Shown in pieces: positions 5,005 to 63,599 of a DNA stretch of 64,000 nucleotides (positions are counted from its first letter, which is position 1; each line of letters opens with the position of its first letter). The position numbers were made by a program, and so were the translations under genes. Under the pieces are notes generated by a model that searched no databases, was not told the DNA's origin, and was given only the letters and a program-made list of their open reading frames with translations. Source of the stretch: Annona cherimola (taxonomy: Eukaryota; Streptophyta; Magnoliopsida; Magnoliales; Annonaceae); contig CM059971.1 in NCBI GenBank assembly GCA_030490835.1, positions 45,990,012 to 46,054,011 of the forward strand. The letters are read 5' to 3'.

Positions 5005-5012
5005 TATAAATA
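5005..5012 (+). promoter_or_regulatory. TATA box of gypsy-1 LTR
   Basis: CTATAAATAG stands in the same context (followed by GGGCAGCA) as the one at 44946 in gypsy-2. Transcription would start about 30 bp downstream. Confidence 0.75.
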
Positions 5013-5838: not shown

Positions 5839-5877
5839 GAAAAGGAAAAGAAAAGGTCGAGGACACTCACTGAGGAG
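5839..5877 (+). other. predicted LTR leader microexon (39 nt)
   Basis: A pyrimidine tract ending TTGAATAG precedes a purine-rich 39-nt block (GAAAAGGAAAAG...GAGGAG), which is followed by donor GTAAGCAAG at 5878. An upstream donor TCG|GTAAGTG is at 5144. The same exon length and sites occur at 45803-45841. The matching 3' acceptor (CAACAACAG) is at 37079, beyond the nested insertions. Confidence 0.55.
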
Positions 5878-6171
5878 GTAAGCAAGTTATATGCTTTGCA
5901 AATTATTTCCAAAATGCTTGAAATTGTTTGCAAATTACTTTATGAAATTTATTTAAGGTTGGCCATAGCTATAACTGCTTTACATGAACTGAAGTACGTT
6001 TGTTAAATTATTTATTAAATGTTTTTTTATGAAATTGTTTATGGTATACAAATATCATGTCGGCATGTGTATGTAAATGAGCATGTACACGAGGAATAGG
6101 CCATAGTTGAGGCAGTAAGCGGACCAAATGTCCCCCTCACTATTGCCTCACTTATATATGCCCAGGCCGGC

Positions 6172-6176
6172 GGTAA
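6172..6176. repeat. left TSD of the 6177-10172 solo LTR (GGTAA)
   Basis: The right partner is GGCGA, reconstructed as GGC (10173-10175) plus GA, or directly at 36894-36898. Gypsy-2 keeps GGCGA at this site. The two differences turn CG into TA, as expected from deamination of a methylated CpG on both strands. Confidence 0.7.
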
Positions 6177-7260: not shown

Positions 7261-7303
7261 CTGTGTCCCTTAGATTTCCGTCTCCATTTTTCTTTGCCTT
7301 TGC
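7261..7303 (-). other. predicted LTR leader microexon (43 nt), acceptor mutated
   Basis: On the minus strand, GCAAAGGCAAAG... leads to ...GACACAG followed by donor GTAAGCAAGC. The acceptor dinucleotide reads AT instead of AG (plus strand 7304-7305), so this solo copy would not splice normally. Exon-1 donor CCAA|GTAAGTA is at 8657. Confidence 0.45.
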
Positions 7304-11391: not shown

Positions 11392-12779
11392 TGTGGAACC
11401 CCAAATTTTAGGACCATGTATGAAACCCTAAGGTCATGAACCCTAGGTTATTGATTTTTTTTAAATATATAATTTTGTAATATATGAAGTTGAAGGACCG
11501 AATAATTAATTTAATCAATAGTAAACATGAATAGTAATCATGTGATTAAGATAAAGTGATAAGCTAATCACTTTGGATTAACTTAATCACGAAAAGACCA
11601 AATTACAATTTTACAAAAGTGAGATTAAATTATAAATTTAGAAAAGATGATTGATTGGTAATTTTGACAAGAGTGGAGGCACGAAGTGCACTTAGTGGAA
11701 ATTTACAAAGGTTATATTTGGAATTTAAAAGAAAATGGAGGGTAATTTATGATCCTACTAAGATTAGTTATAAAAATGAATTTTTACAAATATTTTGGAA
11801 AGGAATTTCAAAATTCCGAATTATACAAATTGAAACTGTTTAAATTCACGGACCTTATGGAAAAATAAAAATAAATGAAAAATTTTGGGCTAATTAGGGG
11901 CTCTAATTAAGGGCCTATATTCATCCTTACTGTTTTGATTAGATCTAAACATGTATAACTCGGAATCACATAAAAATTTAATAGAAAGTACTAAATTATG
12001 TGCTCTCTAATCTAGACGGATCAGATTATGAAAAATAGTTGACTAAATTGTCAAACTTAAATATATTAAAAAGCGTGCCAAAGGTAATAAATTACACCTC
12101 CATGCACCGCCATGCATGTACACGTTGATATTTAAATTTTTTTATTTTTTTATTTAGTTAATTAATATCTTGATATATATAAGGCTGTTTTAGACGAAAC
12201 TTTTGGAGCAAGCCTATTTTAATATACCCTACATAATGAATGGATTAAATTTTGCAAAATATGTCTACAAATTTTTAAAATGAAATTTTATGCCAAAAGA
12301 TGATTTTAATTAAATTAAAATACGTACTTAGCTCCAATTGAGGTGAAATTTTATGGGTAATCCTATTTTAACATGCTCAATTTAATGAAGGAATGAAATT
12401 TTGGAAATCATGTCTCCAAAATTTTAAAATGAGACTTTTTATCCGAATATGAATTAGTTAATTAAAATAAAATAAAACATTTTTTAAAAATTCCGAAAGG
12501 TACATTTTGTGAGAAATTGTATATATATTAATAAGAAAAATTTTCATAATATAGAAGTGTGTATGTAGGCAGTTATGATTTAATTTGTTAATGGTGGAAT
12601 TTATTATTAAAAAAGAAAAAAGAAAAAATACGCTGGGCAGCAAACGGACAGCACATGCAATTACGTGGACAAGCAAATAATTGCCGAATTTTTTAGAAAC
12701 TCAACACCTGTAATGAAGTAAGCGGTGACTTATGTTGGGTTAAAATTAAACTATGGTAATACCGCAATTGAGAGATACA

Positions 12780-12787
12780 TATAAAGG
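12780..12787 (+). promoter_or_regulatory. TATA box of the 11392-15932 LTR
   Basis: TATAAAGG, 72 bp before the predicted exon-1 donor, followed by a purine-rich leader. Confidence 0.6.
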
Positions 12788-14156
12788 ATCTGGATTGAAA
12801 AAAAAAGGAGACGTTTAGAGAAGAGGGCAGCAGCACCAGGCGTAGACATCCAAATCAGGTATGGTTATAATATTTGATTCTATTTCAATGATTTGGATAA
12901 CCCATGAAATGCTGGGTATAAGTGATGTTAAAACATAAATGGACGTTTGAATGATAGAGTTTATGCACTAATTATTTTGATTTTGAAATTCATAAGCTAA
13001 AAGTTAAACAACCTGCTGACGTTGATATGATTCATGTATATACTATTTTGATTTTAATTCATAACCTATCAAACGTTAATCTGCGAAATCATTCCTCTGA
13101 ACAGGTTTATATATATATACCACATTCGGTATTGAATTTCATAAAATCAAAAATTTTATAGTCTGAACGTTAACTTAATTCAGTTTTGATTTCATAATTT
13201 TAGAACTTCTATCATCCTAAACAATTATGATTTAATAACTGTTTAAAATGATACAATTTGAATTACCCTCAAAATAATAGGTTAATCTTGAATTATTGTT
13301 TTAAATCTGAAGGTTATGTGATGTGAGAAACCAAAATAAGAATGAGATGGTAAACGAAGGAGTTTAGCTTGAAAATTTGTGTACAATCTCATTATATTAT
13401 CATTAAGGAACTACCAGATTTTTAGCTTAAAATATTAAGCTGGTTGAAAATTAAAAATCCGAGAATATTAATTTAAACAGGGTAAAACGGGTGACAGGAT
13501 CAGCTGTAGTAAATGATTTTTAATAATTTTTTGAGATGGAATTTTACTCTGAAATTTTGATATGATGTACAAGATATTATGGTTATCACACGAAAAATAT
13601 TAAATATTATTTTTGGATTACATAAGTATGGTTTAAAAATAACGTGATTAGGGCTGTTCCTAATTTTACAACACTGTCCAGCACAGTGAAAATGTCAAAA
13701 TAAATATATAATGTTAATATTTATTGATGAAATTTTTATGAGTATTAAATCATGTAGTTATTGATGTATGACAGAAATTTCAGAGTTAAATACCTTTATT
13801 TGATTATAAATCAAGATTTAGAGAAATTAGTACACCTGATTTCAGCAAATGTGAACAGTAATTAGGAACATGATCATGAACAATAATCATGAATAGTAAA
13901 CAGAGTGATTTGGGCAGAAATAAGATTGATATTTATAAGGATGTATGAATGGAATTTTTGAAGATTTTTGGGATAAAAATCCATATGTGAAAATAGAGAC
14001 TAAATTAACCTCTATGAGAGTTATGAAGGAAAATAAAGTGATTATGACATATGCATGGGTTAGAAACCCTAAGATGAATTCAAATTTAATAGTAGAAATG
14101 TACAAGCATGGAATATTATGTCTATATGAGAAAAATGGTTCTTTTCATTTGCATAG

Positions 14157-14200
14157 GAAAGGAAATGGGTACAAGTGAAAGATACAAGTTGACTACGCAG
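14157..14200 (+). other. predicted LTR leader microexon (44 nt)
   Basis: Upstream tract TTCTTTTCATTTGCATAG, then GAAAGGAAATGGG...TACGCAG, then donor GTAAGCAAGCAAAC. Position and composition match the microexons in the other LTRs, although the surrounding introns are diverged. Confidence 0.58.
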
Positions 14201-16179
14201 GTAAGCAAGCAAACCTTTTGAAAATACAATTTTATACGACCTTATTCTGCAATCTTAAATTGTCTTGGAAATTGCTTCGTTAAAAGCAAATCCTTTTAAT
14301 CTTGAAAAATATTGAAATGCAAATGCTGAAAAGGTTGTGTTGAAAGGAAAATGATATTTGAAATAAATGTTTTAGAATAATTTTATTACAAGGTTTTGAA
14401 GTATTTTAATGATATGTTTTAAAGGATCTCTAAATATTGGATTATTTTGGAGTTTCCAAAATCTATTATTTCAAGAAGGATTTAAGGAAGGCCGAACGAT
14501 AAATTAATTTCAAAAATGATTTGAGTAATGGTCAAATGATTATACAAGACTATCCCATATAGAAAGGAATGATAAGACAGGTGAACAAAAGTATATGATA
14601 TTAGATGAAAGTTTCAAATATTTTTAAAGACGTTTTGTCATTAAAAAATTATTTACAAAAAAAAACGGTTAGAAAATATTGTTATTTTAAATGTTTTCCT
14701 TGAATACTTCAAATGATTTATGAAATATAAATGTTTTAAAGTTGGCCATCCTTACAAAACGTTTTGAGTATATAACTCGTTAACATGGGTTAAGCCCAGT
14801 TTTCAAGATTTGAAAGAAATACAGATTGAGGTCTGTAGTATTTTATAAAAGCATGATAGCATCAAGCTTTTAGAAAAGGAACACAGACTGTGGTCTGTGG
14901 TTTTTATAAAATCATGCTAGCATGTGAATGTGAAGGAAAAATGTGCACAAGGATTATGTACTAGGTCTACTGTAAAGGATACGCAAGCCGGACGCGGTTG
15001 CAAATTGGGCCCCCTTTGCATAGGCTGAGTCGCTTGAATAAGGCTAAATGCCGGCGGCGCCCTCCCTGCAATGGGAGATGGACACGGATAGCCGCCTGGC
15101 TCGTGGGCTATCACCTGGAAGGGTTTCTCTCCTAAGGAAGGATGATCACTTGATAAGTGTCACCTGCCAGATGGACAGAGACGTATTGCATGTTGCATAT
15201 GCTTAAAAAGGGTTTTATGAAAAGTATTTTAGGACATGAGAATGTCCTATGAGAAAAGGAGCTTCAATGAAAAATGTTTTAGAACATAAATATGTCTATG
15301 GAAAAAGAATTTATATGTCAAGCTTTACAAGCATATGTTTGTCATGAATTGGGATTATGAAATGTTTGTGAAAGGTACTTATGAAAAGGTTTCCTCCAAT
15401 TGCTAGTCGAACGCTCGTTAAGCGTCTACTACTGAAAGGTGAGAAATGCATTTAAAATGAAAAATGCTTGCTTATTGAGTTTCGACTCATGTTTTGTTTT
15501 CCCCAACCATAGATAGGTACCAAACAGGCCATGCAGGAAAGGAAAAGAGTATGAAGAAAACTTTTCAACAAACTAGTCTGTATATGGTATGAATGATTAT
15601 GTGGAATCTTCAAAATATGTATGTATGAAATGTTTAGATTGAAAGAACTTGTGATGTAGATAAGTCAATTATTATGATATGAATAATATATATGAAATTG
15701 ATGTCAAGGATATGTTCATATATGATGACATGATGTTATGTGATGAGATATTACGAGTATCATGTGTAAAATTGATGACGAGTGTTTGTTATATGATGAA
15801 AGAAAAAAAAATTTGGACGAGATCCAAATAAAAATCCCGCCGTGTGATCAGGGCAACAATCCTGAGTCACGTTTACCAATCAATAAAGATCCTGGAGTAA
15901 GGCTTCTAGGCACCCTGGGTCGGGGCGTCACAAGTGGTGACACTTAGCAAGTGATCATGCTACCTTTTGGAAGAGAATCTATAACAGCACGCTAGGCAGG
16001 CGGCTGTTTATTTATCCTGCTCCCATCTCAGGGAGGGCACCACTGACACTCCTGTCATCCCTTAGCGACTTGGCCTTATGTAGAGTGGGCCCCGGTCATC
16101 CCAACCACGCTCTATAACCTGCCTGTTCCTTTTACTAGTGCACCGTACATTATTATGACGGACCGCAGCCCGTTTGGTT

Positions 16180-17455: not shown

Positions 17456-17502
17456 CTGAGATCACCATAATCCTTTTCTTTCATACTCGTCTTTGCCTTT
17501 GC
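17456..17502 (-). other. predicted LTR leader microexon (47 nt)
   Basis: Minus strand: CATTTATTTAG then GCAAAGGCAAAGACG...ATCTCAG then GTAAGCAAGC. It is duplicated exactly in length in LTR 2 (34300-34346) and in the plus LTR at 37521-37567. Confidence 0.58.
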
Positions 17503-33054: not shown

Positions 33055-36000
33055 AGCCTATGTCCTTTTAAACTGGGATCACAGACCTCTGTCTGCATCC
33101 ATAACACACAAAAATCTTAGACCGAAGTCTATATCTTTAAAAATCATTTTCAAAAACACATCACTGTCTGCAGTCCGTGTTAACTTGTAAAGCGAGCGCA
33201 CACACTTTAAATAAGTTGTCATTTGAAATCTAATTTTAGGATGACCTTCCTTAAATTCTTTTAGAAACATTTTGATAAACATTTGAAATATTTGAAAAAT
33301 AATACATCTTAAAATCCTTATAAGAGAATTTCAAGACTTTTGAATTTTTTAAATTAAACTATATATTTTCTAACATTTTCTTAGTTTCAATTTTTGGGTC
33401 TTTTGCTCACAAAAGTTATGCAATTATGCTAACTCCTTCTCAACCACCTTAAAATAAATTTCTTTTCCACAAATCAATTTTGTCATTTTCACATAAAGGG
33501 CTTGCATAATCTTTTGCATACCATTTAGCAACCCGAAATCAAATTATTTTATGAAATCAACATAGGAGGTTGGTCATCCTTAAATCCCTTTCAACACATC
33601 CGTATAAATATTTTTTAAGATATTTTCAACATAGATTTTCTTATCTAAAAAAAATCAAAACTTTTCGAATATCATTTCAAAACATATGGACTATGTCCAA
33701 ATCATCATTTATTATTTAATTATCATGACCTAGCAAAACAAATCTTTTTCATAAATCAAATCCTTTTTTTATAACATGATTATTTATCATTAAACATCAT
33801 AAGAGAAATTCAAAAATTATTTACGTTTGTTGCTTTGTGAAAAAAGGAAAAATTCTATTTTTCTCATAAAATACTTTTGAAACAACATCATAAAGAACTT
33901 TTTTACTTAAAACAAAATTCTTAAAAAAAACCATCGACTTAAAACGTGAAATCCTTTGAAAACATTATCGTGTTGAACTTGCTTACTCATAAGCAAATTA
34001 TTCAATCCATTAACTTAAAGCATTGCCAATCTTTGGCAACACTGATGATAAAATCCTTTTCTTAAAATATATTGCTTGCTTCCCATGAAGCAAACCTTGA
34101 GGCTTTTTCTTAAAGCCATTTTTTTCCAAAACTTACGACTTTTCATTAAAGCCGTCATTTTCCAAAACTTGTGGCTTTGCATTAAAGTCATTATTTTCAA
34201 AACTTGTGCTTGCCCATTCGTCATAAAATAAACACAAAAATTTCAATTACATCAATCACATAGAAAGAAAATAATATTTTAGAAAGTTTTCTTGCTTACC
34301 TGAGATCGCCATAATCCTTTGCTTTCATACTCATCTTTGCCTTTGCCTAGATAAATGAAAATAACATTTCATTTATTTGCATTATCTTCAAATACTTATA
34401 TTCCTTAAGTTTTTCAACCTACATAAATCTATTTGGACTTATATTACACTAACTTAGCCCACATGTCTTTCAAGTCGGGTGTTCATACGTATCTTTTCAT
34501 ATACGTCCATTTTTCAACACATAAATCATGTGTTTCTTAAAAAATTTCAACACAAAAACTTGTCTCTAATTCAAGCATGATTAAACCCCTTAATTAACCT
34601 ATAATTTAGGGTTTAATTTTTGATTTATAATTCATTCATCATAGGGTTCAAAAACAGTAACATTAGAACCCATTTTTCACCATTACAACGCCTGTTTTGA
34701 CACTTAATTCAAAACAAATTTCTAGTCCATAAATTCTAGAAATTAATCATGTTTTTCTTAACCCAAATTTAGGGTATTAAAAAATGTTTAAAATCCATAT
34801 ATTAACTCCTCTCAAAACAGCAACTTATTTCCCTATTGCAGGTACCGTTTTCACCCCATTTGGACACCTATTCATAAAATTCATAAAATCAGATTTGGGG
34901 CTTATCTTCCCAAATCCTATTGGGTGTCCAAAGTATCATAATACTAGGGTATTTTACCCTACATAACTTCCATAAATCATTCAATATCATTTCCATACCA
35001 TTTTTAACATAAAAATGGAAAAATTGAGTCATATATGCAACCCTAGGTTCCATACCTTATAAAATCAACAACCTATTCATAAATAATCATATGACTTATA
35101 TTAAATCATGATTTATATCCCATTATAAGTCAAATTTCATCACAAAAATCTGGAATTTAACATTTATCTTGATTTATTCCTTAAGTTGTCCATAATGCTG
35201 AATTCAGGCACACTGAATTCTCAAAATCTTGAATTAATATCAAATATAGTAGTTTTGATCTGAAATTTATATAATACCTTAATAAATATATCAATTAACC
35301 AAAATAAATATTTTCAACATGAAATATTTAGTATTTATATTTATTTTGGTATTGTTACTCTGCTGGACAGTAGCACTTCTTTTCAGACAGCCTTAATCAC
35401 GTAAAATTATTGGATATATTTATACCTATAAAAACCTAATTTTTATTTTAGTTGTGTGATCTTAAATATGTCCTATATATCCTATATAATTTTCAGCCCA
35501 AAATTCCTTGTATAAAAATTATTAAAAATCCTTTGTTGTAGCTGATCCTGCCACCCGAGCAACCCTGTTCAGGTTGATTTTCTCGAATTTGTAATTTGCA
35601 ACGTACTTATCCTTTTAAGCTGAAAATTGGGTCATTATTTAATCACCAGATCATGAGTATATTTATACATATTTTCATACTACAACTCGTTCATTAAATA
35701 TTTCTTCCATATTTTAGATTTCTGCCTCATTTCTTCTAGGTTTTGCTCTTATATTTGCATCTCTTTTCAATACATATTCAAAACTCTCAATCAATTCTTA
35801 ATTCCAGCATGTTGTTAATCTTTCTTTAGAGGTTTAATATGATTCAAAATCATGATTCCAATATCAAGAAGAAAATATGGAAATTGGAAGGCTTAAACTT
35901 AACGGGTACTTGCCCGATTTCGTCGATTCTTTGCCCCGAGCTACTACCAAGCCTTGCCTTCCTCTTTTCCTTCTCCTTTTCTTCCTATTTTCCTCTCCTC

Positions 36001-36891: not shown

Positions 36892-36896
36892 CAGGC
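36892..36896. repeat. right TSD of the LARD-like element (CAGGC)
   Basis: An exact partner of 10171-10175. After it, gypsy-1 LTR sequence (GACCTCCTTGAGATGGGAG) continues. Confidence 0.9.
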
Positions 36897-37408
36897 GACC
36901 TCCTTGAGATGGGAGCATGTATGGGATGGGCGCCTAGCTAGTGTTGCATCTAAAGGAATGTCATGAATGCTATGAATGCATTGCATTTGCATTTTATGAA
37001 ATGCACGAAAATGATTAAAATTTTTTTGTATGTCTTGCTTACTGAGTATTATTACTCACCTATGCTTTTTCAACAACAGACAAGAAATGATGAAGGCAAC
37101 ATGCAAAATGATATGCAGTTTTTGATAGAAATGTTGTATATGTAAATTTGCATGTAAAGACAATGATGATAATTTTGAAATAGAAAAGAATATCTTTTCA
37201 AGGATGATGTTTTATGAACGGGGTGTGATTATCACTATGATATGTGAAATATATTTCATGTTGGATGAATGATGAAAATTTTTCATGTGTTGATGAAACA
37301 TAAAAAAAAATCCTGCCGTGTGATCAGGGCAACAATCCTGAATCACGTCTACCAATCAAAAATGATCCCGGAGTAAGGCATCTAGGCACCTTGGTTCGGG
37401 GCGCCACA
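36894..37408 (+). repeat. gypsy-1 3' LTR, second part
   Basis: Resumes at GGCGACCTCC, matching gypsy-2 from 46138, and ends GGGGCGCCACA. It includes the final predicted acceptor TTTTTCAACAACAG at 37079. The right-hand TSD of gypsy-1 should be GTTAA (37409-37413); its partner is outside the window. Confidence 0.92.
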
Positions 37409-37520
37409 GTTAAGCTAGTTGAGGTAAGTTGATGTGGATTCATATAGATTGGAAAACCCTAAGGAATGCAAGCATTTGAAATTTATGCATATAAATGAAA
37501 TATCATTTTTATTTATCTAG

Positions 37521-37567
37521 GCAAAGGCAACGAAAAGTATGAAAGAAGGGGATTAAGGCTATCTCAG
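37521..37567 (+). other. predicted LTR leader microexon (47 nt)
   Basis: ATTTTTATTTATCTAG, then GCAAAGGCAACG...ATCTCAG, then GTAAGCAAGCAAAC. Confidence 0.58.
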
Positions 37568-38302
37568 GTAAGCAAGCAAACTTTCCAAAATATTGATTTC
37601 CTCCTATGTGTTGAAATGATTAAAAATGTTTATGTCAATGATTTTATGAATTTCTTACAAGTGGGCAAACATAAGTTTTGAAAATGATGGCTTTAATGAA
37701 AGACCTCAAGGACTGCTTCATTTGAACCAAGCAACACTTTTTAAAATAATTATTTTATCACAAGTGTTGCAAAGATTATGAATGTTTTACGTTGATGGTT
37801 TTAAGAATTTGCTTACAAGTAAGCAAGTTCTTCATGATGCTATTTTAAAAGGATTTTATAAAGAAAAAGGGAGTTTGGACCTTTTCACAAAGAAATAGTT
37901 ACAAACAAGCTTTGAGTTTACTCCTATGAGATTTTGTGAAAAACAAGTATGTTTATGAAAGAAAAAGAAAAAGGGATTTGATTTATAGAAAAAGATTGGT
38001 TTCTCCATGCCATGACACTTAAACATAAACGATGATTTGGACATGGTCAATCTATTTGAAATGATATTAGAAAAGTCTTGATTTCATTTAAATATAAAAA
38101 TATTTTGAAAATGCCTTGAAAAATATTTATACAGATGTTGTTAAAAAGGGGTTTAAGGATGGTCAACCCGATAAGTTGATTTCATAAAATGAACTGATTT
38201 CAAGTTGCTAAATAGCATACGAAAGGCTATGCAAGCTCCTCTTTATGTAAAAATGACAAGAATGATGTGTAGACAAGGATATGATACTGGGCTGCGATCG
38301 TA

Positions 38303-38572
38303 TGCACCCGGGTGTACTACACCTATTTTTTAAAATTTTTTTAAAATTTTTTCATGAAGCTGTTAATCTAGGTGTATTTAACATATATATCAATTTTTAT
38401 CATTTTTGGATATTTTGAGAATTTTTTTTAGATTTTTAAAAATCTAAAAAAAATATCTAAAAGTCGCCAAAAAAGATAAACATTGATACATATGTTAAAT
38501 ACACTTAGATTAACCGTTTGGTAAAAAAATTTTGGAAAAAAATAAAAAAAATGGTTGTATCACCCAGGTGCA
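38303..38572. mobile_element. fold-back / MITE-like palindromic element
   Basis: A palindrome of about 270 bp centred near 38437 (GATTTTTAAAAATC). The ends TGCACCCGGGTG and CACCCAGGTGCA pair. Inner arms GTTAATCTAGGTGTATTTAACATAT... and their complement near 38500 pair with few mismatches. The block is absent from the homologous LTR positions (near 16660 and 33490). No clear TSD was found, and outer borders may extend by about 15 bp. Confidence 0.75.
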
Positions 38573-39115
38573 TTGAGGCTCAAGTAGATAAAAGGGAATG
38601 ATGCAATTGCATAACCTTTGTGGGTGGAAAGCCCCGAAATGGAAACAAAGAAAATGTTAGTGAAATACATTGTTTATTCTTAAAAATTTAAAATCTTTGA
38701 AGTTTCTTTATCATGATAATTTTAAGATTTATTACAAGCAAAATTTTTAGAAAAGATTGTTTTCTCAAACATTACAAATACTTATCAAAATGTTTTACTT
38801 AAAATATTTTTAAAAGTATTTAAGGGTGATCATCCTAAAATTAAATTTCAAATATGTTAAAGTGGGTGCACCTACTTTTTAAAGATGGTTTAAAAGGACA
38901 TGGATGCGATCTGTGATGTTTCATGAAATCATGCTAGCAAATGGATATCAATGATGATGTGTGGTGCACCAGAACAATGGATAGGTCAATTATAGAGATG
39001 GTCGGAGATGGACCCCCACTTTACATAGGCCAAGATGCTAAGGGATGGCAGGAGGCCAGTGGCACCCTCCCTGAGATGGGAGAAGCATTAAGGAATAGCC
39101 ACCTAGCTAGCGTAC

Positions 39116-40075
39116 TGATAACTCGTAAAAGTTTGAGTTATCATAGCCCATTTTATACTATTTTTGCGTGTTAGTCCAAGAGATTAGACATAGTTTGCAT
39201 CCACTTAGCTTAATTTTCACTCTCTTTGCATTTTATGAGCATTATTTATTTTTTTTTATGCATTTTTAGCATAAATTAGGCATTTTTAGTCCATTTTAGT
39301 TTATGTAATTTTTGCAGGAAGGACGGGCGAATTACAAGCAATGCGGGCGAAGCGGATGCAAATCAGAACCAAGTCACGAGGCAGGTGGATGGCGCCCAGG
39401 CGCCAACCTACATGCCCTTGCCAGAACTCCAACATAATTCAGTAACCAGTAGATTCCAGGGAGTTGGCGCCTAGGCGCCAGCTAGGGGCGCCAAGGAGCC
39501 AAGGCATGAAGTCCTAGGGTTTCTAAAAAGGTTTCCAAGTTACCCAGCACACAGTGAGTTGGCGCGCAGGCGCCAGCTAGGGGCGCCTAGGCCCCACGAC
39601 GCATCCGTACGCGTGCGGGTTTCTGCACATGTGCTGCGCAAGTTACCCATTATAAATAGAAACCTAGGGCTGCATGCAAGAGAGTTCTGGAGGCCATAGA
39701 GGAGAGACCAAAATAGGGAGTAGCTGTTGTGGAGAAAAGGAGGAAACCAAAGCTTCAAGGAAGGGGAGAAGAGCAAGTGGAGATCCAAGCCACCACTGCA
39801 AAATCCATTGAGTTTCATCTCCTCTTCTCATCTATCTCTACCTGTTTATTATTCTCCTTGCTTGGGATGATTGTAAACTCGATTTTAATAGGAATTGAAG
39901 TCATGTTTATGGGCTGAACCTTCCTATGGTGGGAGATATGTAGGATTTGAACTCATAGCTTATGATATTTGGTTTTCTTATGCTTGAATTGATAAAACTG
40001 TTGTGCCGTGACTTGTGTTACTTGAGATTACCCTTATATATTATGCTTAATGCGTTTATAAGCTTTGCAACCTTG
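39116..40075 (+). mobile_element. Tat/Ogre-like LTR insertion (right border uncertain)
   Basis: TGATAACTCG...GAGTTATCATAGCCC is a start style I associate with plant Tat/Athila-group LTRs. It contains GGCGCC palindromes in the presumed U3 and a TATA box (TATAAATA, 39651-39658) followed by a purine-rich leader. The sequence is absent from related LTRs here. Host LTR homology is certain again by about 40130. No TSD was recognised, so it may be a truncated solo LTR. Confidence 0.55.
39391..39595. repeat. GGCGCC palindrome cluster
   Basis: GGCGCCCAGGCGCC (39391-39404), the perfect palindrome GGCGCCTAGGCGCC (39466-39479), GGCGCC (39487), GGCGCGCAGGCGCC (39561-39574) and GGGCGCCTAGGCCCC (about 39581). 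All lie within 260 bp upstream of the TATA box at 39651. Confidence 0.85.
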
Positions 40076-41117
40076 TGGATTACATAAATGTTTTCTATGT
40101 AAATGCTTTCATGAAAAAAGATTATGTGTATATGTCTTATTTACTATAAACAAGCCTCAAAATGGGGATTACGAAAAAAGGTTTTTGTGGAAAAGTGTTT
40201 TAGGACATAAAAATGTCCGTTTCCAAAAAGGGTTTATATGGAAAAATGTTTTGGACATAAAAATGTCCATTGGCAAAAGAAGGGTTTATGTAAAATGTCT
40301 TGGAACATTAAAAATGTTCACACAAGAACAAAGAGAATTACCTAAAAAGGGTTATATGCATATGCATTGCCTTTGAAAAGTCTAGACATGGCATACAAAA
40401 GGTTTATATGAAAAGATGTTTATGAAAATGTTTTAAAGAAAAGTACTTGCCTAAAGATAAAATGATTGCTTACTGAGTTATCACTCACAATTTGTTTTTC
40501 CAAACCTTAGACAGGTACTGGGAAGCTCAAGAGATTGAAAACCTAAGCAATTGAGGAAATGTATGAGATTGTATTGTGCTATAATGATTAGCTATGATGT
40601 ATGGGATGGTATGATTGAAATTTTTAAAGTATGTTGATGTATGTGGACTTATTGAAAGTTCTAAGTTCTATGTGAACTGATGGTTGAATGTATGTATACA
40701 AGTATGGATGTTGAATAGTTGATAATGAGTGAATTTTATATGATTATGGCATGGCTAGGTTGATAAAGCCAATGATGTAAGAGAACAAGATAGAAGTTTA
40801 TAAATGATATGCGTAGTTGATGACAACTTCCAAGTTGTAAGATTATGAACAAGAATAAGGATGAAAGGGGAGCCAAATGGTATTTTTAAAATACTGAGTG
40901 CGACGATTCACAAATGTATCGTTGCTTATGATATGAATGAAGTGAAATGTAAAGAAATGAAATGATGAAGGAAAAGGAATGAAACAAAAAAAAATATAGA
41001 CAAGATCTAATTAAGAACCCGTCACGTGATCGGGGCAACAATACTGATTCACATTTACCAATCAATAAGATTTTCGAGTAAGGCTCAGGATGTGACGCCT
41101 CGGGTCGCGGGTGCCAC

Positions 41118-44109
41118 TATGATATCCATATCAAAATAGGAATCATACATGTACATTTAACTTGTAAATATGATTTATGTATTATTTAATTGATTTATGA
41201 ATTATTTCAATGATCTGATGATTAGGGCTAATGATTAAGAATGGTGATTAAATTAATCGCCATAGCCCCATTTGGGTCATTATAAATAAAGTGGCCTAAA
41301 GAGGATTGGAAAATGTCAATGTGCAATGAATAATTATTTCATTCATTATGATTTAATTAATGGGAATTATGATGATAATTATGGAATTAAGGTGATAAAT
41401 ATTAGAAAATTCATAACTTAACACCTATAAGGCGGAATAAGAGAAATTTGAAACGTAACCACATAATTTTGTATACAATCTTATCAATGGATTGGATTAT
41501 GAAAATTATGATGGTATTAGGGTGATAATTATTTATTTTCATCCTAAATCCAAAATTTAAACTCAAATAACCATAACTTAATATAGAAAGGTCATTTTGA
41601 GATGAAATTTGACATGAGCGGGTAAAACAATATGGCTGACATTACGGAAGGGATTAATTAAGCTAATTATCATGAGAAGATGCTTAATCACAAAAGGATG
41701 AGAGACTTTGACTTTTGTCACATAAAGTGACATGCCCATTTATGAAAAAGTAAGTGACTTAATGGGGTGTTTAATGGCATATGAGAGGTGTCCAAAGGAG
41801 GTGATTTTGGGCTCAATTTGTGATTTAATTTAAATCCTAAAATCCATGGGAATCCAGAAGATTAATGCATAGGATAAAGGCTAATGGGTGTAGGCTTGAG
41901 AGGCTTGGAAAGGTGGCTAGCAAGGGACGTCCAAAGGCCCCTTTTTATGGATTTTTTGATTTTTAAAAAATGAAAATATGCATCTAATTAGCCTAGATAG
42001 CTAAGGTAAGTAATGGGCATTAATTTGGGTTGAATTTTATGGCAAAAAAATGCCACAAAACCCATGACATGTGGACATCTAATAGTGGATAGCTATTTGG
42101 GCTAGATTGAGCTAAGATTTGATGATTTTTATATATGATAATTATGCATTTTTACTTGGGTAAAATGATTCCAACACACCAATGGATAAGTGGGCTATAA
42201 ATTAACCTAATGTGATGTGTCAAACTGGGCCCAAAAAATCAGAAATATAAGAAAGGGGGTGAGCACATGGGACATCCATTTGGGCAAGTGAAAGAGAGGA
42301 GAAAAAAATCCTCTAAGGGCAGCAACTAGGAACGTTCCCAAGCAGGCTAAGAAAGGAAGAAAGAAGGAAAAAGAAGGAAGAAAAGAAAGAAGGAAAAAGG
42401 GAAAACCAAATTAGGAAAGCTTGATCCAAAGGCTCCTAAATTCAAGTAAGTATGATTTAAATTTTAGATCATTTAATTCTAAGTTTCTTACCACTATTTA
42501 TGGGTCATGAATTTGATCCATAATGAACCCTTAAAGGATGATTTGTGATGTCCTTAATTAGGGTATTGAATGAGGATTGATTGGAAGGAATGAATTCAAG
42601 GGTTTAAAGAGGTTAAGTTGGATGCTAGGATTGATTATGGTCCATAAACCTAGCTGGAATTTTTCTAAATTCCCTAATTAAGTTGCTGTTATGATTATAT
42701 TTCATGGTTGAATTATGATTCATGATTATATGAATTATATATGTTGATTTGGGTATAAGATATGAACTCTAGAAAGGATGGAACTTTGGATTGTCAACAT
42801 GACCCGATTTTCACTCTTTTATGATATGTATGATGCATGAATTGAACCAATTAATCTATGGATGATTTAAAGGGTAAAGTACCCTAAATTAAGGGTACTT
42901 GGGGCGTCCAACAAGGGTTGGGAAGAATTGCCCAAAATCTGAATTTTTAGGGAACTTATGGTGGACAGCCAAAGGGGTGCCAAAAGGGTGCCCTAACATG
43001 CATGGAAAGTTACCGTTTTGGAGCAACAAATTTATGAACTTTAAATATGTGTTATTACCCTAAATTTAGGATAAGAAAATAATGATTAGTGGCTGGAATA
43101 TATGAGTCAAGAATCCGTTATGACATAAGTGTCAAGTTGGATGTGAAAGAAGGGTGCCAAAGTTGCTATTTTGGAACCCTATGATTAATGGATTAAAATT
43201 CCATAAATATACCCTAAATGATGTGCTAATTAAGTGGATTAATCATGCCAAATTATAGGGCAAGTTGCTATGTTGAAAGAGATTAAGAAACACATAGCAT
43301 ATGTGTAGTAAGAAGGGTGCACATAGAAAGGGTATGTATGGTTAAATGAAAAATGACTTATGTGATTTGCTAAAATGCAAAAGTGCATGAAAAGGTGATG
43401 AAATGCATGTAATAAATATTAATCTCAAAATTTGAGATTAATATATGAGGCCTAAGTTATCAACTATGTGCCTAAAATGAGCACCGATATATGAAATATG
43501 AAAAATATGGGAAAAACGATGAATGGGAGGCAATAAACCTCCATATAATGATTTAATGAAAGATTGTTATATGTGTGAAAATTTACCCTACATACGAGTA
43601 TTGAAAATGGTATGGAATGAATAGACGGTATGATTCACAAGTGTGTGCTATGTATACTTGACTTGAAAATTCAAGTGGGTCATGTATGTTAATGATATGT
43701 CGGTTGGAAAACTAAGTTGTATGCAAGCAAACGAGAATTATATGAATGCAATGTCATTCTTATGTGTATAGGCAAAGGTAAAGAAAGGGTTGATTTGAAA
43801 AGCTAAAACAAGTAGGTAAGCAAGCAATTTTCTAAAGAATTTTTGCTTTCTTAAAATTATGATAAAATGTTTGCTAATGATATTCTAAAATCTTTGAATT
43901 GTTTAGAAAATGATTGTTTGAATTGTTTAGAAAATGTTGTTTGAGGATGGCCATTTGTTATCTCAATATATTATTAAAATGTTATTCAAATATGCCAAAT
44001 GATTTATCAATGATTTATTAAGTGTGTTGAGCCAATTTATGGTTCATATGATGTTTATGAAAAATCATGCTAGTATGCTAAAGATCATGTTTATGATGAG
44101 GTCATGTGC
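41118..44109 (+). mobile_element. partial gypsy-type LTR interrupted by gypsy-2
   Basis: Begins directly at the end of the previous LTR. Its order matches the other LTRs in plus orientation: U3, TATA-like TATAAGAA (about 42246), exon-1 donor TCAA|GTAAGTATG (42446), acceptor TGTGTATAG (43771), microexon (43772-43815) and donor GTAAGCAAGC (43816). It stops at the gypsy-2 LTR (44110). The remaining 3' part should lie right of the window. The exact left border is uncertain because the terminal bases are decayed. Confidence 0.7.
43772..43815 (+). other. predicted LTR leader microexon (44 nt)
   Basis: GTCATTCTTATGTGTATAG, then GCAAAGGTAAAG...ACAAGTAG, then GTAAGCAAGC. Confidence 0.58.
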
Positions 44110-44945
44110 TGTGGAACTCCGACCGAATACGCATCATTTCGACATTGTAACCCTAGATTCTTTTTTAATTATTTTTATGATAAATGAAATTTCATGGATT
44201 ATATTGGCGGATATGTGTATTGGAGATTGAAATAATTCAATCGGGAACTTAACCCCGTGAATAGTAAACGTGAATAGTAAACGTGAATAGTAACTGGGGA
44301 TTAAGAATTAATCATTTGGATTAACTTAATCACAAAAAGACAAAATAGAGATTTAATCACTACAGGACAAAATAGAAATTTTTTTATATTTTAATTAAAT
44401 TTTGGATTTTAGTGGAAAAATAAAGAAAAATTCATAATTTGCAATCCGGGCGTCGGATTTCGATGAAATTTTTTATGGATGATTAAAAATTCATGATGAA
44501 CATGATGGATGGTTTAAGATGAGATGAAAATCATAAATAAAAGGTCAAGATGGAGCGTCAAATGGAGATTAAAAAAGTAATCTAACTTTTCATTAATTAT
44601 GCATTTGACTTTTATTTTAAATAAATAATTAAAAAAATAAAAAATTAAATGCAAAGCAGCTGCAATGGCAGGGACGTGCATGGGGGTGGGTGAGCTTTGA
44701 CCAAAAATCAAAGGCTTAAAATCATTATAATCATAAACCAATGGTTAGGATTGATTTAGCCTAATTTAATTAATTTTAAAAATAAAAAAATTAAGAAAAA
44801 TAGGGCTGCATAGGGGGGATGGAGCAGGCCTAGGGTGGCTGCTCTTGGCTCAAGGAATTTTTCAATAATTAAAAAGAAATACCAATTTATAATTAAATAC
44901 CTCAAAGTTGGGGGGTAAATTCCAAATTCTTGAACAATGCAACCC

Positions 44946-44953
44946 TATAAATA
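44946..44953 (+). promoter_or_regulatory. TATA box of gypsy-2 LTR
   Basis: TATAAATA within CCCTATAAATAGGGCAGCA, identical in context to gypsy-1 at 5005. Confidence 0.78.
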
Positions 44954-45802
44954 GGGCAGCAAGGGGGACGTCCAAGGCAAAGAAATCCCAGCTCCACTTG
45001 AGCCATTCCAAGCCCCAAACCATCCCACAATCCAAAGAAAGAAAGGAGCAAGTTAGAGTGAGAAAGTGTGAGAAAAAGAGGCGTATCTCCACTTCGGGTA
45101 AGTGATTTCTACCCAAATTTCTTTTGGATATTAATTAGGGTAAAAATATTCTTAGATAATTCCTAAGCATGAGAAAATAAGTATAGATATAATGCTTAAA
45201 TGGAATTATGCCAAAACATAAAAAATTTGGAGCGAAGATAAGGCATTCGAGAAGATAGCATATTATATGTGAAAATAATGCTCCAAAATTGATAAATGAT
45301 AATTTGGGATGTATGATTATGAAAAATATGATATCGGAGTGATGATATATTAATTTCATGATTTTTGAAATTAAGGATTATGCTTAAGTGAATTTATGTT
45401 GATTTTTATTATATGGAGAAAATGATTTTTTTGCTAAGTAAATAATGATAAATTCGAAATTTATGAAAATTCCCATGGTATACTAAGCATAAGCTATGTC
45501 ATGGTATTTTTTTATTTTTGGAAAAAATGTCAATTTTTGGAACCCATGAACAGTAACCACGTCTCTATGAACAGTAACCTCGGATGAACAGTAACTGCTA
45601 CGGTAATTTGCTACAGTGATTGATACAGTAAACAGTGTGATTTTGGAGAAAATTTGAGATTAATATTTAAATATAATGATGGAATTTTTGAGGAACCTAT
45701 GGATAAAAAAATTCATATAAAGAAATAATGCCAAAATATTATAAAGCATGCATGGGAAGCAGCTTGAATAGAAGAAATAAAATATCCTTTTTCCTTGAAT
45801 AG

Positions 45803-45841
45803 GAAAAGGAAAAGAAAAGGTCGAGGACACCCACTGAGAAG
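45803..45841 (+). other. predicted LTR leader microexon (39 nt)
   Basis: CTTTTTCCTTGAATAG, then GAAAAGGAAAAG...TGAGAAG, then GTAAGCAAG. Predicted intron 1 is 45098-45802 (705 nt) and intron 2 is 45842-46323 (482 nt). This is the one complete, uninterrupted example attached to an internal domain. Confidence 0.6.
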
Positions 45842-46663
45842 GTAAGCAAGTTATATCTTTTGCAAATTATTTCTAAAATGCTTGAAATTATTTGTAAATT
45901 GCTTTATGAAATTTATTTAAGGTTGGCCATACCTATAACTGCTTTACATGAACTGAAGTTCGTTTTGTTAAATTGTTTATTAAATGCTTTTTATGAAATT
46001 TTTTATGATTTGCAAATATCATGCTGGCATGTGTATGTAAATGAGCATGTGCACGAGGAATAGGCCTTAGTCGAGGTAGTAAGTGGAGCGAATGTCCCCC
46101 TCGCTATTGCCAAGTCGCTTATACAAGCCCAGGCCGGCGGCGACTTTCCTGGGATGGGAGCATGAGTGGGATGAGCGCCTAGCTAGCATCGCATCTAAAG
46201 GAATGTCATGAATGCTATGTATGCATTGCATTTGCATTTTATGAAATGCATGAAAATGATTGAAAAATTATGTATGGCTTGCTTACTGAGTATTATTACT
46301 TACCCATGCTTTTTCAACAACAGACAGAAAATGATGATGAAGGTAGCATGCCTAGTGTTATATAGTTTTTGATATAAATGTTGTATATGTAAATTTTATG
46401 TAAAGACAATGATGATAATTTTGAGATGAAAATGAATATTTTTATTCCAATGGAAATATTTATGGAACAGTTTTTTATCACAACTGTGATATGTGAAATA
46501 TATTTCATGTTGGATGAATAATGGAAATTTTCCATGTATTGATGTTATATATATATATAATCCTGCCGTGTGATCAGAGCAACAATCCTGAGTCAGGTTT
46601 ACCAATCAAAAATGATCTCGGAGTAAGGCTTCTAGGCAACTCGGTTCGGGGCGCCACAGAAGT

Positions 46664-46675
46664 TGGTATCAGAGC
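46664..46675 (+). other. primer-binding site of gypsy-2
   Basis: TGGTATCAGAGC, complementary to the initiator tRNA-Met 3' end, 5 bp after the LTR end. Confidence 0.95.
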
Positions 46676-46774
46676 ATGGATTGGTAAATAGGCAGAAAAG
46701 AAAAGAAATGATCAAGCTAGAATACATAAAATCATTATTATAATTGATTTATTTATCATTGATGATTTATAGAG

Positions 46775-47548
46775 ATGGCAGATAGAGGAAAGGCTCCACT
46801 AAGTGCACAGGAACTAGAAGAAGAGATGGAACGGGAACGGGCTCAGGAGAGAGTTAACAGGTGGTTAGCCTCTCAATAAGGTTTAACCCTAAGACTCCCA
46901 GCTCCCACTAGTTATCGGCCACTTCCACACATTAGGGGACCAGAAGCACATCGCCCAATAGTCCCCAGCCATCCACCAGGATATCCGGTATTATCTAGAA
47001 TCCACCAGGTAGAGTCCTCTAACCAGGCACTTGCACCCCCAGATTCTTAAGTCTATACCCCAGCCAACCCACTACCTAGACCGTCGGTCGTTACCGATTG
47101 GGTTACTGAGGAGGATTTACAAATATATTGGCAAAGGAGAGCTGCCCCAGTCCCACCTAACCCAGGTCTGTGGTTTAGGTTTGATGCAGGATATATTTAG
47201 TTCCGATACGGAACACCATGGGCACAAATTGACCGCTGGGAGAGGGAGGCTTCCCAGGAACGCCTGGAAGCTCTGGCTAGGGGAGAGGAAGTAATGGGGC
47301 AACCTGCTCCGAAACAACCTGGTGAGTTCATCCTACGGGTCATAGAGTTAGAGGTTATGCCCGAATCCCCACCTCGTGCCCCTCCAGCAAACGATGATGA
47401 GGACCCGATAGAATGGTTTGATAGCGAAGAGGAGGACGAGAACCCAGGACCCCAGGATTGGTCTGATACCAGTACGGTCACTGAAGAACCCACACGGGTA
47501 CCCTTTAGTCTCAGGAGGTTCCTGAGGTTAAGGAGAAGGGGACGCTAA
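46775..47548 (+). pseudogene. gypsy-2 ORF0 upstream of gag (unknown)
   Basis: ATG at 46775 (MADRGKAPLSAQELEEEMER) opens a frame of about 257 codons with three in-frame stops (46877, 47048, 47198). A Pro-rich middle is followed by a Trp-containing segment (TDWVTEEDLQIYWQ, PWAQIDRWERE), an acidic patch (DDEDPIEWFDSEEEDE) and a basic end (RRFLRLRRRGR). It has no zinc knuckle, protease or capsid motif. Gag starts 250 bp later in the same frame. It could be a displaced gag N-terminus or an accessory ORF. I do not recognise it. Confidence 0.5.
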
Positions 47549-47797
47549 ATGAGATAGGGACCAGGAAGACGCAGCCACCGCCACCGCCAAAACAGTTTAT
47601 GTTTCTTTTTTTATAAATATGTAAATATTGTTGGGAACAGGTACATAAGGCTAAGCTAGCCTATGTACAAAAGTTTGACTAATGTATGAATGGTTTGCTG
47701 ATAATTTATGATAATTATGTGATCATGTGATTATGTATTAAATTTATATCATGATGAATATCGATGTTATACTAATCAATGTTTCATGAAGTAGAAA
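47549..47797 (+). other. spacer between ORF0 and gag
   Basis: AT-rich and non-coding, beginning with a CCACCGCCACCGCC triplet run near 47574. Nothing further is recognised. Confidence 0.6.
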
Positions 47798-58795: not shown

Positions 58796-58843
58796 CTTTG
58801 CTTTGCTTTAAATCTGACTCCTTTATCCTTTCCTTTCCTTTTC
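58796..58843 (-). other. predicted LTR leader microexon (48 nt)
   Basis: Minus strand: TTTCACTTGTATAG, then GAAAAGGAAAGGAAAGG...GCAAAG, then GTAAGCAAGC. Very purine-rich, like exonic splicing enhancers. Confidence 0.58.
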
Positions 58844-61912: not shown

Positions 61913-63599
61913 TGTTGGTCCCGAGTTAATGACAATTACCCAAGAGGGGAGGGGTGAATTGGGTATTTAAAAATTTTCAACTTAAACAAAATTTTTACCC
62001 CGGATTAATCTAGTCCCCTTTATGAAAAAACAAATGGAAAGCAATATAGTGCTGAGAGCATAAATAAAAATCAACAAGCAAGATTTTATAGTGGTTCAGG
62101 CAACCTTCCCTACTCCACTCTTCCAAGCTCACACCTCTTGTGACTTGGGTTCCACTATGAATTCACAAATACAATTAGAGTCACTGCTCTCTTCTAGATT
62201 CCAGCTCTAGATGGCATCAACAATTCACAGCATAAGTAGGTGATGAGTTCCATTCCAATCACACACTACCTTGCTTACACTTGATCTTAGTTACCCAAAC
62301 TAAATTAAGTTCAATACAACAAGTAAAATTAAAAGAAAGTTTCTACACGTTACTGATGTGTAGAGGCAGATTTGGCGCAGAGAAGAACTTGTAGCGTAGG
62401 CTTAATGATTCAGCAAGCAGCTCTTGGCAGTTTGAAAGCAAGGTTCTTCTTCTATATGTTGGCTTGATCACTTAATGCTCTTAGTGATGGGAGTTATGCT
62501 TAATCAATGAATTCTCAGCTACACTCCACGTTCATATTGAATGCCTTATATAATTGTTGAGGGAATCCGAACGTTTGGAAGTAGGTGGCGCGGATTTAAT
62601 GCGCCAACATTCGAAAAATTTCCAACCATTGCGACCCAAGTCGCAGGTGGAGTCGACTTCGGGTGCGACTTCGCCCAAGTCGCAGATGGAGTCGACTTCG
62701 GGTGCGACTTCGGCTGTCTGCAACTTCTTCAAGTTCCAGTCTGGGTTGACTTGGTCCTCGACTTGACCCAAGTCGAAGGTGAAGTCGACTTCGGGTGCGA
62801 CTTCACTTCTTCAGCTTGCTAGTTGAACTTGATGTTCTTTGGAATGCCTTGCTTGCTTGAATTTCTTCATGTTTGGTTGTTCTTCTACCATTTTATATTA
62901 CTTAAGACTCTTTATGATTCTTTTATCTTGAAAGTATTTGATTCCATGTCTTGAGTCTTGAATCTTGGAATGCATAGATGATGTTCGAGTATGTGTTTAT
63001 GATCCAACATGATGGATTCATGCAACCCTACTTGCTTTGGTCTTCATTTGATCTTCATTTGATCCATGTTGAGTGTTTTAGTTGACTTGACCTTCTTCTC
63101 CACTCAAATCTATCATTGAGTTAACTCGTTCGGCAATTTCCGCACTGAAGTCAAAGCTGGAGTCGACTTGGTCTGCGACTTCACCCAAGTCGTATGCGGA
63201 GTCGACTTGGGATGCGACTTCGGCAACTCTCGTCCCCGATTTCAACTCTGGACAGAAGGTTAAGTCTGAAGTCAATACCGGAGTCGACTTGGTCTGTGAC
63301 TTCCCCCAAGTCGCATGTAGAGTCGACTTGGGATGCGACTTCGACAGCTCTCATTCTCGATTTCAACTCTGGAAGGAAATGACATTTTGAAGTCGCTACT
63401 GGAGTCGACTTGGGGATCGACTTGGCCTAAGTCGATGCCTGAGTCGACTAGGAAATCGACTTGACCTGCCATGCTTCATTTTCTTCATTTTTATAACCTT
63501 TAATCATTTCCACTAACGTGTTAGTGACCAAAACTTACTCAAATTGATTTGTTAATCATCCAAACATAGACTTGGCTTATTTTCCACATATTTCCAATA
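61913..63599 (-). repeat. Sirevirus-2 5' LTR (1687 bp)
   Basis: TGTTGGTCCC...TTTCCAATA on the plus strand, colinear with 51581-53223 with scattered substitutions. GTCGAC clusters are at 62625-62800 and 63145-63465; the distal cluster is one unit longer than in the 3' LTR. The minus-strand TATATAAG is at about 62543-62550. Confidence 0.95.

Follow-up and report, generated by a model that had tools for sequence, protein, structure and literature searches.

Does a gypsy-type retrotransposon of a flowering plant carry a spliced, noncoding leader within its own long terminal repeats (LTRs), and if so, what would the splicing serve? The question is raised by a 64-kb stretch of Annona cherimola DNA (contig CM059971.1, forward-strand positions 45,990,012 to 46,054,011; 'the window' hereafter), which self-comparison and junction reading resolve into nested plant LTR retrotransposons with nine gypsy-type LTRs. 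In one of these, the 5' LTR of the element gypsy-2, an original prediction made from the letters alone had placed a TATA box followed by two introns on either side of a microexon, and had reported the same arrangement in the other LTRs. We regard a functional spliced leader in these LTRs as well supported by its sequence signature, and we think it probable (roughly 0.6) that spliced transcripts would serve as messenger RNA (mRNA) for Gag while unspliced RNA replicates, with a helix between the ends of the second intron plausibly setting the balance.

The predicted leader of gypsy-2 is laid out as follows (nt, nucleotides; PBS, primer-binding site).

44946-44951, plus strand: TATA box, TATAAA, read from the sequence
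44976-45097, plus strand: predicted exon 1, without ATG, its start assumed about 30 nt past the TATA motif
45098, plus strand: G of donor 1, CGG/GTAAGTG
45098-45802, plus strand: predicted intron 1, 705 nt, 32 ATGs
45802, plus strand: end of acceptor 1, TTGAATAG
45803-45841, plus strand: microexon (exon 2), 39 nt, 5% T
45842, plus strand: donor 2, GTAAGCAAG
45842-46323, plus strand: predicted intron 2, 482 nt, 27 ATGs
45842-45855, plus strand: 5' strand of the intron-2 terminal helix, GTAAGCAAGTTATA, 14 of 14 positions pairing
46094-46195, plus strand: GC-rich conserved island within intron 2, GCCAAGTCGC...GGGATGGGAG...CCTAGCTAGC, also given as GGCCAAGTCGCT...CCCTCCCTGAGATGGGAG...CCTAGCTAGC
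46273-46286, plus strand: 3' strand of the intron-2 terminal helix, holding a branch-point-like CTTAC
46287-46302, plus strand: small hairpin TGAGTA-TTAT-TACTTA, directly ahead of a T-rich tract
46323, plus strand: end of acceptor 2, CAACAACAG
46324-46342, plus strand: possible exon 3, ending AAG/GTAGC, three ATGs (weaker evidence)
46343-46772, plus strand: possible intron 3, spanning the LTR end and PBS and ending TTTATAG directly before AG-ATG (weaker evidence)
46664-46675, plus strand: PBS, TGGTATCAGAGC, 340 nt 3' of acceptor 2 and just beyond the LTR end
46775-46777, plus strand: putative gag start codon, context AGAG-ATG-GC

The positions originally given for the TATA box, both donors, both acceptors and the microexon were all borne out letter by letter.

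Leader sites and composition in nine LTRs

The nine LTRs, with the microexon of each, are these (TSD, target-site duplication).

LTR A, 44110-46658, plus strand: 5' LTR of gypsy-2, TGTGGAAC...GGCGCCACA; microexon as above
LTR B, 4176-6176, continuing at 36893-37408, plus strand: 3' LTR of gypsy-1; microexon 5839-5877
LTR V, about 10172-6177, minus strand: solo LTR sitting within B; microexon 7261-7303, acceptor AG lost
LTR W, 11392-15912, plus strand: solo LTR, TSD AGTGG; microexon 14157-14200
LTR E, minus strand: 5' LTR of element Y, interrupted by a SIRE-type copia element; microexon 34300-34346
LTR F, minus strand: 3' LTR of element Y, interrupted by solo LTR W; microexon 17456-17502
LTR H, 37409-41118, plus strand: lacks its 5' part; microexon 37521-37567
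LTR I, 41119-44109, plus strand: lacks its 3' part; microexon 43772-43815
LTR C, 60612-57102, minus strand: solo LTR within a second copia element; microexon 58796-58843

By our own grouping they sort into about six families (A with B, C, W, E with F, V, and H with I), the kinship of H with I being assumed. Because H lacks its 5' part and I its 3' part, exon 1 and acceptor 2 can each be judged in eight of the nine. Counts across the LTRs are not independent, since the nine are related, partly damaged and drawn from one window; a figure with one LTR per family was computed for the exon-1 ATG test.

Every one of the nine microexons of 39–48 nt lies exactly where it had been predicted and is followed by GTAAGCAAG; the acceptor described as decayed, in V, is indeed so, with GTAT preceding 7303 (minus strand) and another AG 6 nt inside. 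Exon length is also steady amid diverging surroundings, as had been proposed: intron 1 ranges from 695 to 1567 nt and intron 2 from 482 to 2049 nt, or 2943 nt in the insert-bearing H (lengths in B, E and F being taken on joined strings). The further claim, that the site sequences are the same throughout, stands for donor 2 (9/9) and roughly for acceptor 1, but not for donor 1, which reads GTAAGTG, GTAAGG, GTATGG, GTAAGTA or GCAAGT. Judged as plant GT-AG introns, the candidates have donor 2 in nine of nine LTRs, AG at acceptor 1 in eight of nine, AG at acceptor 2 in eight of eight and GT at donor 1 in seven of eight, E having GC. Acceptor 2 is a tandem AG, 4–5 nt apart, whose second AG is present in all eight and whose first is lost only in E (21380, minus strand).

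The window holds 18 copies of GTAAGCAAG on its two strands: nine at the microexons, five as the reverse complement in the boxes that precede acceptor 2 in A, B, C, E and F, three within intron 2 (E, F, H) and one in a copia LTR (62270, minus strand). An AG lies 36–48 nt before GTAAGCAAG at 21 AG starts, against a mean of 0.27 (maximum 3) in 100 first-order random sequences, and a tighter pattern, built from the data, gave seven matches against none in 100, so that chance is a very unlikely source of the microexon and donor 2. We also scanned for an AG, then 30–60 nt at ≤20% T with flanks ≥12 points richer in T, then G/GTAAG. The sense strands of the nine LTRs (33.8 kb) gave nine matches, eight of them proposed microexons (W was missed; in V, whose first AG is lost, the match used the AG 6 nt inside) and the ninth exon 3 with donor 3 of LTR E; there were no matches on the LTR antisense strands (33.8 kb), nor on the two strands of the remaining 30.2 kb. 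As the thresholds were chosen with the microexons already known, the scan shows specificity, not discovery. The three second copies within intron 2, at 37819 in H (plus strand), 17133 in F and 33978 in E (both minus), fall 250–315 nt past donor 2 and are possible alternative donors; that of H lies in GCTTACAAGTAAGCAAG, a small palindrome.

Composition follows the predicted borders. T makes up 7–23% of exon 1 (eight LTRs) and 5–18% of the microexons (nine), against 32–36% of the introns; in the first 50 nt of exon 3 it varies (6–34%). Ranked by T-depletion relative to flanks within its own LTR, the microexon falls in the top 0.2–1.4% in eight of nine and at 3.5% in W (A 4/2390, B 17/2357, C 24/3340, W 154/4357, E 43/4771, F 18/4904, V 18/3836, H 46/3543, I 39/2827). 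Exon 1, measured up to donor 1 from a start assumed to lie 30 nt past the TATA motif, holds a single ATG in 1,323 nt over eight LTRs, where dinucleotide-keeping shuffles average 8.3 and none of 2,000 is as low; when each family is represented by one LTR, it holds one in 967 nt, the shuffle mean is 6.2 and 9 of 2,000 shuffles are as low. It is ATG-free in seven of the eight, and in those seven the first ATG comes 2–71 nt past donor 1. GTAAGT occurs within 300 nt of the start five times, against 0.48 expected. The unspliced leader of gypsy-2 carries 82 ATGs in the 1,799 nt ahead of the gag ATG. A coding leader was considered, as E, F and W read open (by eye) from the microexon into exon 3, and was rejected on the microexon lengths (39, 39, 43, 44, 44, 47, 47, 47 and 48 nt) and on the lack of an ATG there in A, B, C and I.

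Conservation between families was scored in 24-nt windows of LTRs A, C, F and V, without preselecting sites. Windows above the best of three shuffled runs numbered 200/2526 in A, 535/3485 in C, 354/5048 in F and 151/3976 in V, and the top non-overlapping ones include donor 2 and the acceptor-2 box (each in C, F and V) as well as the microexon start (A, C, F); in gypsy-2 (A), donor 2 and the acceptor-2 box both lie outside the 18 top windows listed. Conserved islands other than splice sites exist in these LTRs, for the GC-rich island of intron 2 outranks the splice sites in all four queries and the LTR 3' end does so in three (it is fourth in V). When 16-nt windows were ranked (queries A, C, W, F and V, in that order), donor 2 fell in the top 10.06, 1.00, 0.31, 0.28 and 0.10%, the acceptor-2 box in the top 0.28, 0.66, 0.71, 0.24 and 0.93%, the microexon start at 2.64, 4.70, 14.71, 4.63 and 7.93%, the acceptor 1 window at 34, 15, 16, 8 and 14%, and acceptor 2 itself at 85, 1.7, 3.8, 5.8 and 15%. 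From these ranks, the proposal that conservation centres on the splice sites holds only for donor 2, the acceptor-2 box and, in part, acceptor 1; donor 1 drops out of it. Within families, identity at acceptor 1, at donor 2 and over the stretch between the box and acceptor 2 is 0.957, 0.941 and 0.922 for A with B (0.842 overall, 0.704 in exon 1) and 0.957, 0.941 and 0.941 for E with F (0.907 overall, 0.971 in exon 1, 0.778 over the 9 bases at donor 1), comparisons with too few bases to carry weight.

Complementary ends of intron 2

Three features go beyond the original prediction: complementary ends of intron 2, a possible short exon 3 and a possible intron 3 over the PBS. The acceptor-2 box, which contains a branch-point-like CTTAY, is complementary to the opening 14 nt of intron 2 at 9–14 of 14 positions in all eight LTRs (A 14, B 13, C 9, W 11, E 10, F 11, V 12, H 10). 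Positions +1 to +8 pair in every one, with G.U at +1 in W and V, and +9 pairs in seven of eight (mismatched in H). In a duplex control of 468–979 other 60-nt regions per LTR, none equals the donor-2 pairing in A, B, C, W, E or F; ten of 764 regions do so in V, and ten of 706 in H. No comparable pairing was found between the ends of intron 1 in seven of seven LTRs, where 8–82% of regions do equally well. Whole-intron folds, which cover six of the eight introns (A, B, C, W, F and V, with B and F as strings joined across an insert), give pairing probabilities over +1 to +9 of 0.82–0.99 in A, 0.98–1.0 in B, 0.86–0.97 in V and 0.56–1.0 in F. The box is directly followed by a hairpin, TGAGT(A)-4 nt-(T)ACTCA, which matches as a pattern in seven of eight LTRs (V is mismatched at the loop); in A and B it has an extra pair, one base per side, and in E its pairing, judged by eye, is by wobble.

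The GC-rich island of intron 2 recurs at the corresponding position in LTRs B, C, W, F, V and H and is among the best-conserved parts of the LTR. A role for it in packaging or dimerisation is a guess. The idea of a proven RNA structure at the island was set aside, RNAalifold giving 14 pairs of which only one changes on both sides; a hairpin after the island was likewise dropped, since 31 (C), 42 (W), 56 (F) and 72 (V) of 400 shuffles equal it, as do 300–387 of 400 in A, B and H. A search of Rfam gave no matches at gathering scores.

Past acceptor 2, a purine-rich stretch of about 30–46 nt follows in six LTRs (all but A and B). In gypsy-2, TTATTTATCATTGATGATTTATAG stands immediately before AG-ATG-GC of gag, and excision of an intron 3 at 46343-46772 would take out 20 of the final 23 upstream ATGs along with the LTR end and the PBS at 46664.

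Outside the window, 101 stretches in viral contigs carry the microexon and donor pattern; none is similar to the window or its reverse transcriptase (RT), and they were taken as chance. An RT search of viral contigs gave no confirmed relative, and the acceptor-2 box occurs in none of them. One bacterial contig among genome contigs does contain the box, which was taken as chance without further study.

A spliced Gag message and an unspliced genome

From the observed sites, composition, AUG depletion, conservation and complementarity, we infer splicing, and beyond it a possible sorting of RNAs. Transcripts would begin at the LTR promoter and carry a noncoding leader made of a near AUG-free exon 1, a purine-rich microexon of 39–48 nt and a short exon 3, with large T-rich introns within the LTR. 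Splicing would remove dozens of upstream AUGs to yield a Gag-translating mRNA; a third intron would perhaps remove the PBS too, leaving an mRNA unable to prime reverse transcription. Unspliced RNA would retain intron 2, the GC-rich island and the PBS, and act as template for replication. The presence of each intron in all eight judgeable LTRs fits the copying of unspliced RNA only. The original case for function is upheld in part, by the exon scan, the T contrast, the near AUG-free exon 1 and the conserved donor 2 and acceptor-2 box, with splicing itself still at the level of prediction.

The balance between spliced and unspliced RNA would plausibly be set by the pairing of 9–14 nt at the start of intron 2 with the CTTAY-bearing box before acceptor 2. 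This helix would cover the 5' splice site and the branch-point-like CTTAY together, and could hold splicing back; it might instead join the ends of a long intron and so aid splicing. We prefer the former role because the GU itself is paired, although nothing in the data separates the two. A more specific version makes the intron-2 ends a conserved RNA lock, one long-range helix hiding the 5' splice site and branch site and thus forming a single switch between Gag mRNA and genome, a plant counterpart of the retroviral leader switch. The small hairpin would adjoin the helix, some transcripts would stay unspliced, these alone carrying the GC island and PBS, and the helix would have been kept across about six LTR families otherwise hard to align. 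We offer this version tentatively and consider it doubtful as a whole.

A number of observations weigh against the proposed leader or parts of it. The TATA motifs and donor 1 were picked by eye, which flatters the ATG and GTAAGT numbers, and between families donor 1 (48–79%) and TATA (30–84%) rank at background in 16-nt windows. The T contrast is weaker for exon 1 (from 8/2648 in I to 627/3713 in V) and for the opening 40 nt of exon 3 (C lowest at 23/3348, A highest at 616/2389) than for the microexon; exon 1 of LTR I holds one ATG, and the microexons of E, F, V, W and H hold one to three. Intron 3 is the weakest part, resting on one internal region, and its candidate donor GT is seen (by eye) in five of eight LTRs (A, C, E, F and H, not B, V or W). 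As for the helix, the consensus of donor and branch point by itself already accounts for five pairs, GTAAG:CTTAC, so that the interest lies in +6 onward, positions that U1 pairing largely does not need. Among 1,500 other 14-mers of each LTR, 0–12 pair equally well with the acceptor-2 region (A 0, B 5, C 6, W 0, E 10, F 0, V 5, H 12). Of the six introns folded, two do not yield the helix (about 0.15 in C, 0 in W), and among the four folded without joining it is predicted in two. Covariation between families is slight, since only +11 changes on both sides with pairing kept (T.G, A-T) and +10 is one-sided (T.G, C-G). Single folds of the GC-rich island are no better than shuffles (six z-scores, –1.50 to 1.24). 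Finally, the retention of introns in the LTRs is equally expected without splicing.

How far can these observations be accounted for otherwise? The leader might be an ordinary 5' untranslated region, spliced constitutively for AUG removal or a boost in expression, with the helix a by-product of consensus and not regulatory. The complementarity of GTAAG and CTTAC, the absent or weak helix in the predicted folds of W and C and an exon composition ordinary for plants all agree with this, but pairing runs past consensus, through +9 in seven of eight LTRs and to +14 in gypsy-2, and spliced RNA, if copied, should yield intron-less LTRs, whereas none of the eight judgeable LTRs lacks either intron. 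We think it unlikely. Equally, there may be no splicing at all: the box, donor 2 and the GC-rich island, which are among the strongest conserved features, could belong to a structured domain of the genomic RNA that is closed by the GTAAGCAAGC:GCTTGCTTAC helix and serves packaging, dimerisation or nuclear export, the GT and AG at its edges being incidental. Whole folds back that helix in four of six introns, two of them joined strings. Such a domain seems to us quite unlikely, as it would leave unexplained the contrast of T-poor exons and T-rich introns at the predicted borders, the ATG-free stretch ending near donor 1, the T-rich tract and AG past the box, and the strand specificity of the exon scan.

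Another reading is descent of the families from one ancestral LTR, the sites being regulatory DNA (for transcription factors or chromatin) or remnants of a former spliced leader that has lost its importance. The copies are damaged, and related families do have other upstream and 3' blocks in common; yet donor 2 and the acceptor-2 box stand out from the rest of the LTR between families, and DNA sites would not be expected to show an exon signature on one strand only. We regard this explanation as improbable. Chance and pattern-picking on AT-rich DNA could account for the features chosen by eye (donor 1 and TATA) and for the weak exon 3 and intron 3. It can scarcely be credited with the whole, given the chance expectations for GTAAGCAAG spacing, exon-1 ATG and GTAAGT, and the empty controls of the exon scan.

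The elements and known retrotransposon splicing

Membership of the elements in plant Ty3/gypsy is indicated by a gypsy-type RT and Gag and by TG...CA LTR ends, PBS, polypurine tract (PPT) and TSD. Pfam matches are RVT_1 for the RT piece at 1226-2026 (E 7.3e-34), Retrotrans_gag for the gag piece of gypsy-2 (E 5.5e-09) and SH3_Tf2-1 at the integrase end of gypsy-1 (E 1.2e-17), where no chromodomain was matched at 1e-3. Among the best 120 protein relatives listed, the named ones are mostly from angiosperms, Tanacetum first, some are called Ty3-gypsy and a few bear bacterial names. Read from the sequence, the PBS is TGGTATCAGAGC in gypsy-2 and TGGTATTAGAGC in element Y, a purine tract precedes 4176 and 20031, and the TSD is GCCTG for Y and AGTGG for W. 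The elements are most likely Tekay/Del-type chromoviruses, a label inferred from LTR length and from the look of the proteins.

Element Y (36891-20931 and 20031-10176, minus strand) is large and apparently non-autonomous: its LTRs of ~5 kb flank only ~0.9 kb of internal sequence with no long open frame, and it keeps PBS, PPT, TSD GCCTG and the whole leader layout. The TSD copies of solo LTR V (GGCGA/GGTAA) are two CpG-type transitions apart, and that of solo LTR C is (T/C)AAGT. LTR H contains a 272-nt palindrome (38302-38573), 82% self-complementary, that resembles a fold-back miniature inverted-repeat transposable element, and a possible further insert (39117-39160) that starts near TGATAACTCGTAAAAGTTTGAGTTATCA, an inverted repeat. 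In gypsy-2 the interval from the gag ATG to the gag core (46775-47600) is an open stretch, proline-rich then acidic, with some stops, one piece of which gave no match in Pfam. The SIRE-type copia LTR at 63089-63462 has tandem repeats with a unit of about 121 nt.

In size, the LTRs recall the sugar beet elements Bongo1-3 (Tekay/Del), described with full LTRs of about 2.5–3 kb, 5-bp TSD and gypsy-type pol (PMC3605345); TSD and pol type agree as well, whereas LTRs here reach about 5 kb (element Y). A word search of the main text of that paper found no 'splic' and 'intron' once, in another sense. Among the titles and abstract openings listed from the open-licence literature we met no report of a spliced leader inside Tekay-type LTRs, which does not show its absence from print. 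In sunflower, expressed copies are described as splicing, and Tekay is missing from the expressed set (PMC7730604).

Splicing as such is established in several plant LTR retrotransposons, of which the proposed leader would be a variant with the introns placed inside the LTR. BARE1 of barley, a Ty1/copia element, is reported to keep distinct RNA pools for translation and replication, with spliced RNA for Gag, a 104-nt intron at the end of gag and two promoters; splicing is also listed there for Bagy2, Ogre and CRR (PMC3735527). The leader proposed here resembles BARE1 as a plant LTR retrotransposon with spliced Gag RNA, and differs in having a microexon and in the place of its introns, which would lie within the LTR in a noncoding leader. 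Functional introns are also present in Ogre and EVADE, plant LTR retrotransposons being otherwise generally intron-less according to a 2025 review (PMC12786077), and the Ogre intron lies between gag-prot and pol (PMC6317226). The likeness is again that of functional introns; theirs are in the coding part, whereas the proposed introns 1 and 2 lie in the LTR leader and not in gag, in pol or in the interval separating them (no intron search was made in the coding part). In human immunodeficiency virus 1 (HIV-1), the 5' leader has two optional small noncoding exons, and its donor D1 is hidden by one RNA conformation (PMC7912102). The resemblance is in outline only: a leader donor that RNA can hide, small noncoding exons, and unspliced RNA as genome. 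In HIV-1, unspliced RNA encodes Gag too, whereas here Gag would require splicing, and the pairing here joins both ends of one intron; we propose no family membership.

How plant LTR retrotransposons divide their RNA between translation and replication is an open question, for which few spliced cases have been described. The known introns, where they have been located, lie in or between coding parts (BARE, Ogre, EVADE and CRR; for Bagy2, the site of env splicing is not stated). If the proposal is true, an intron-bearing leader would help explain the great length of such gypsy LTRs and would give a sequence test for Gag-competent copies; the helix would offer a direct way into the question of how splicing is restrained, and solo LTRs would be promoters with ready splice donors for neighbouring genes.

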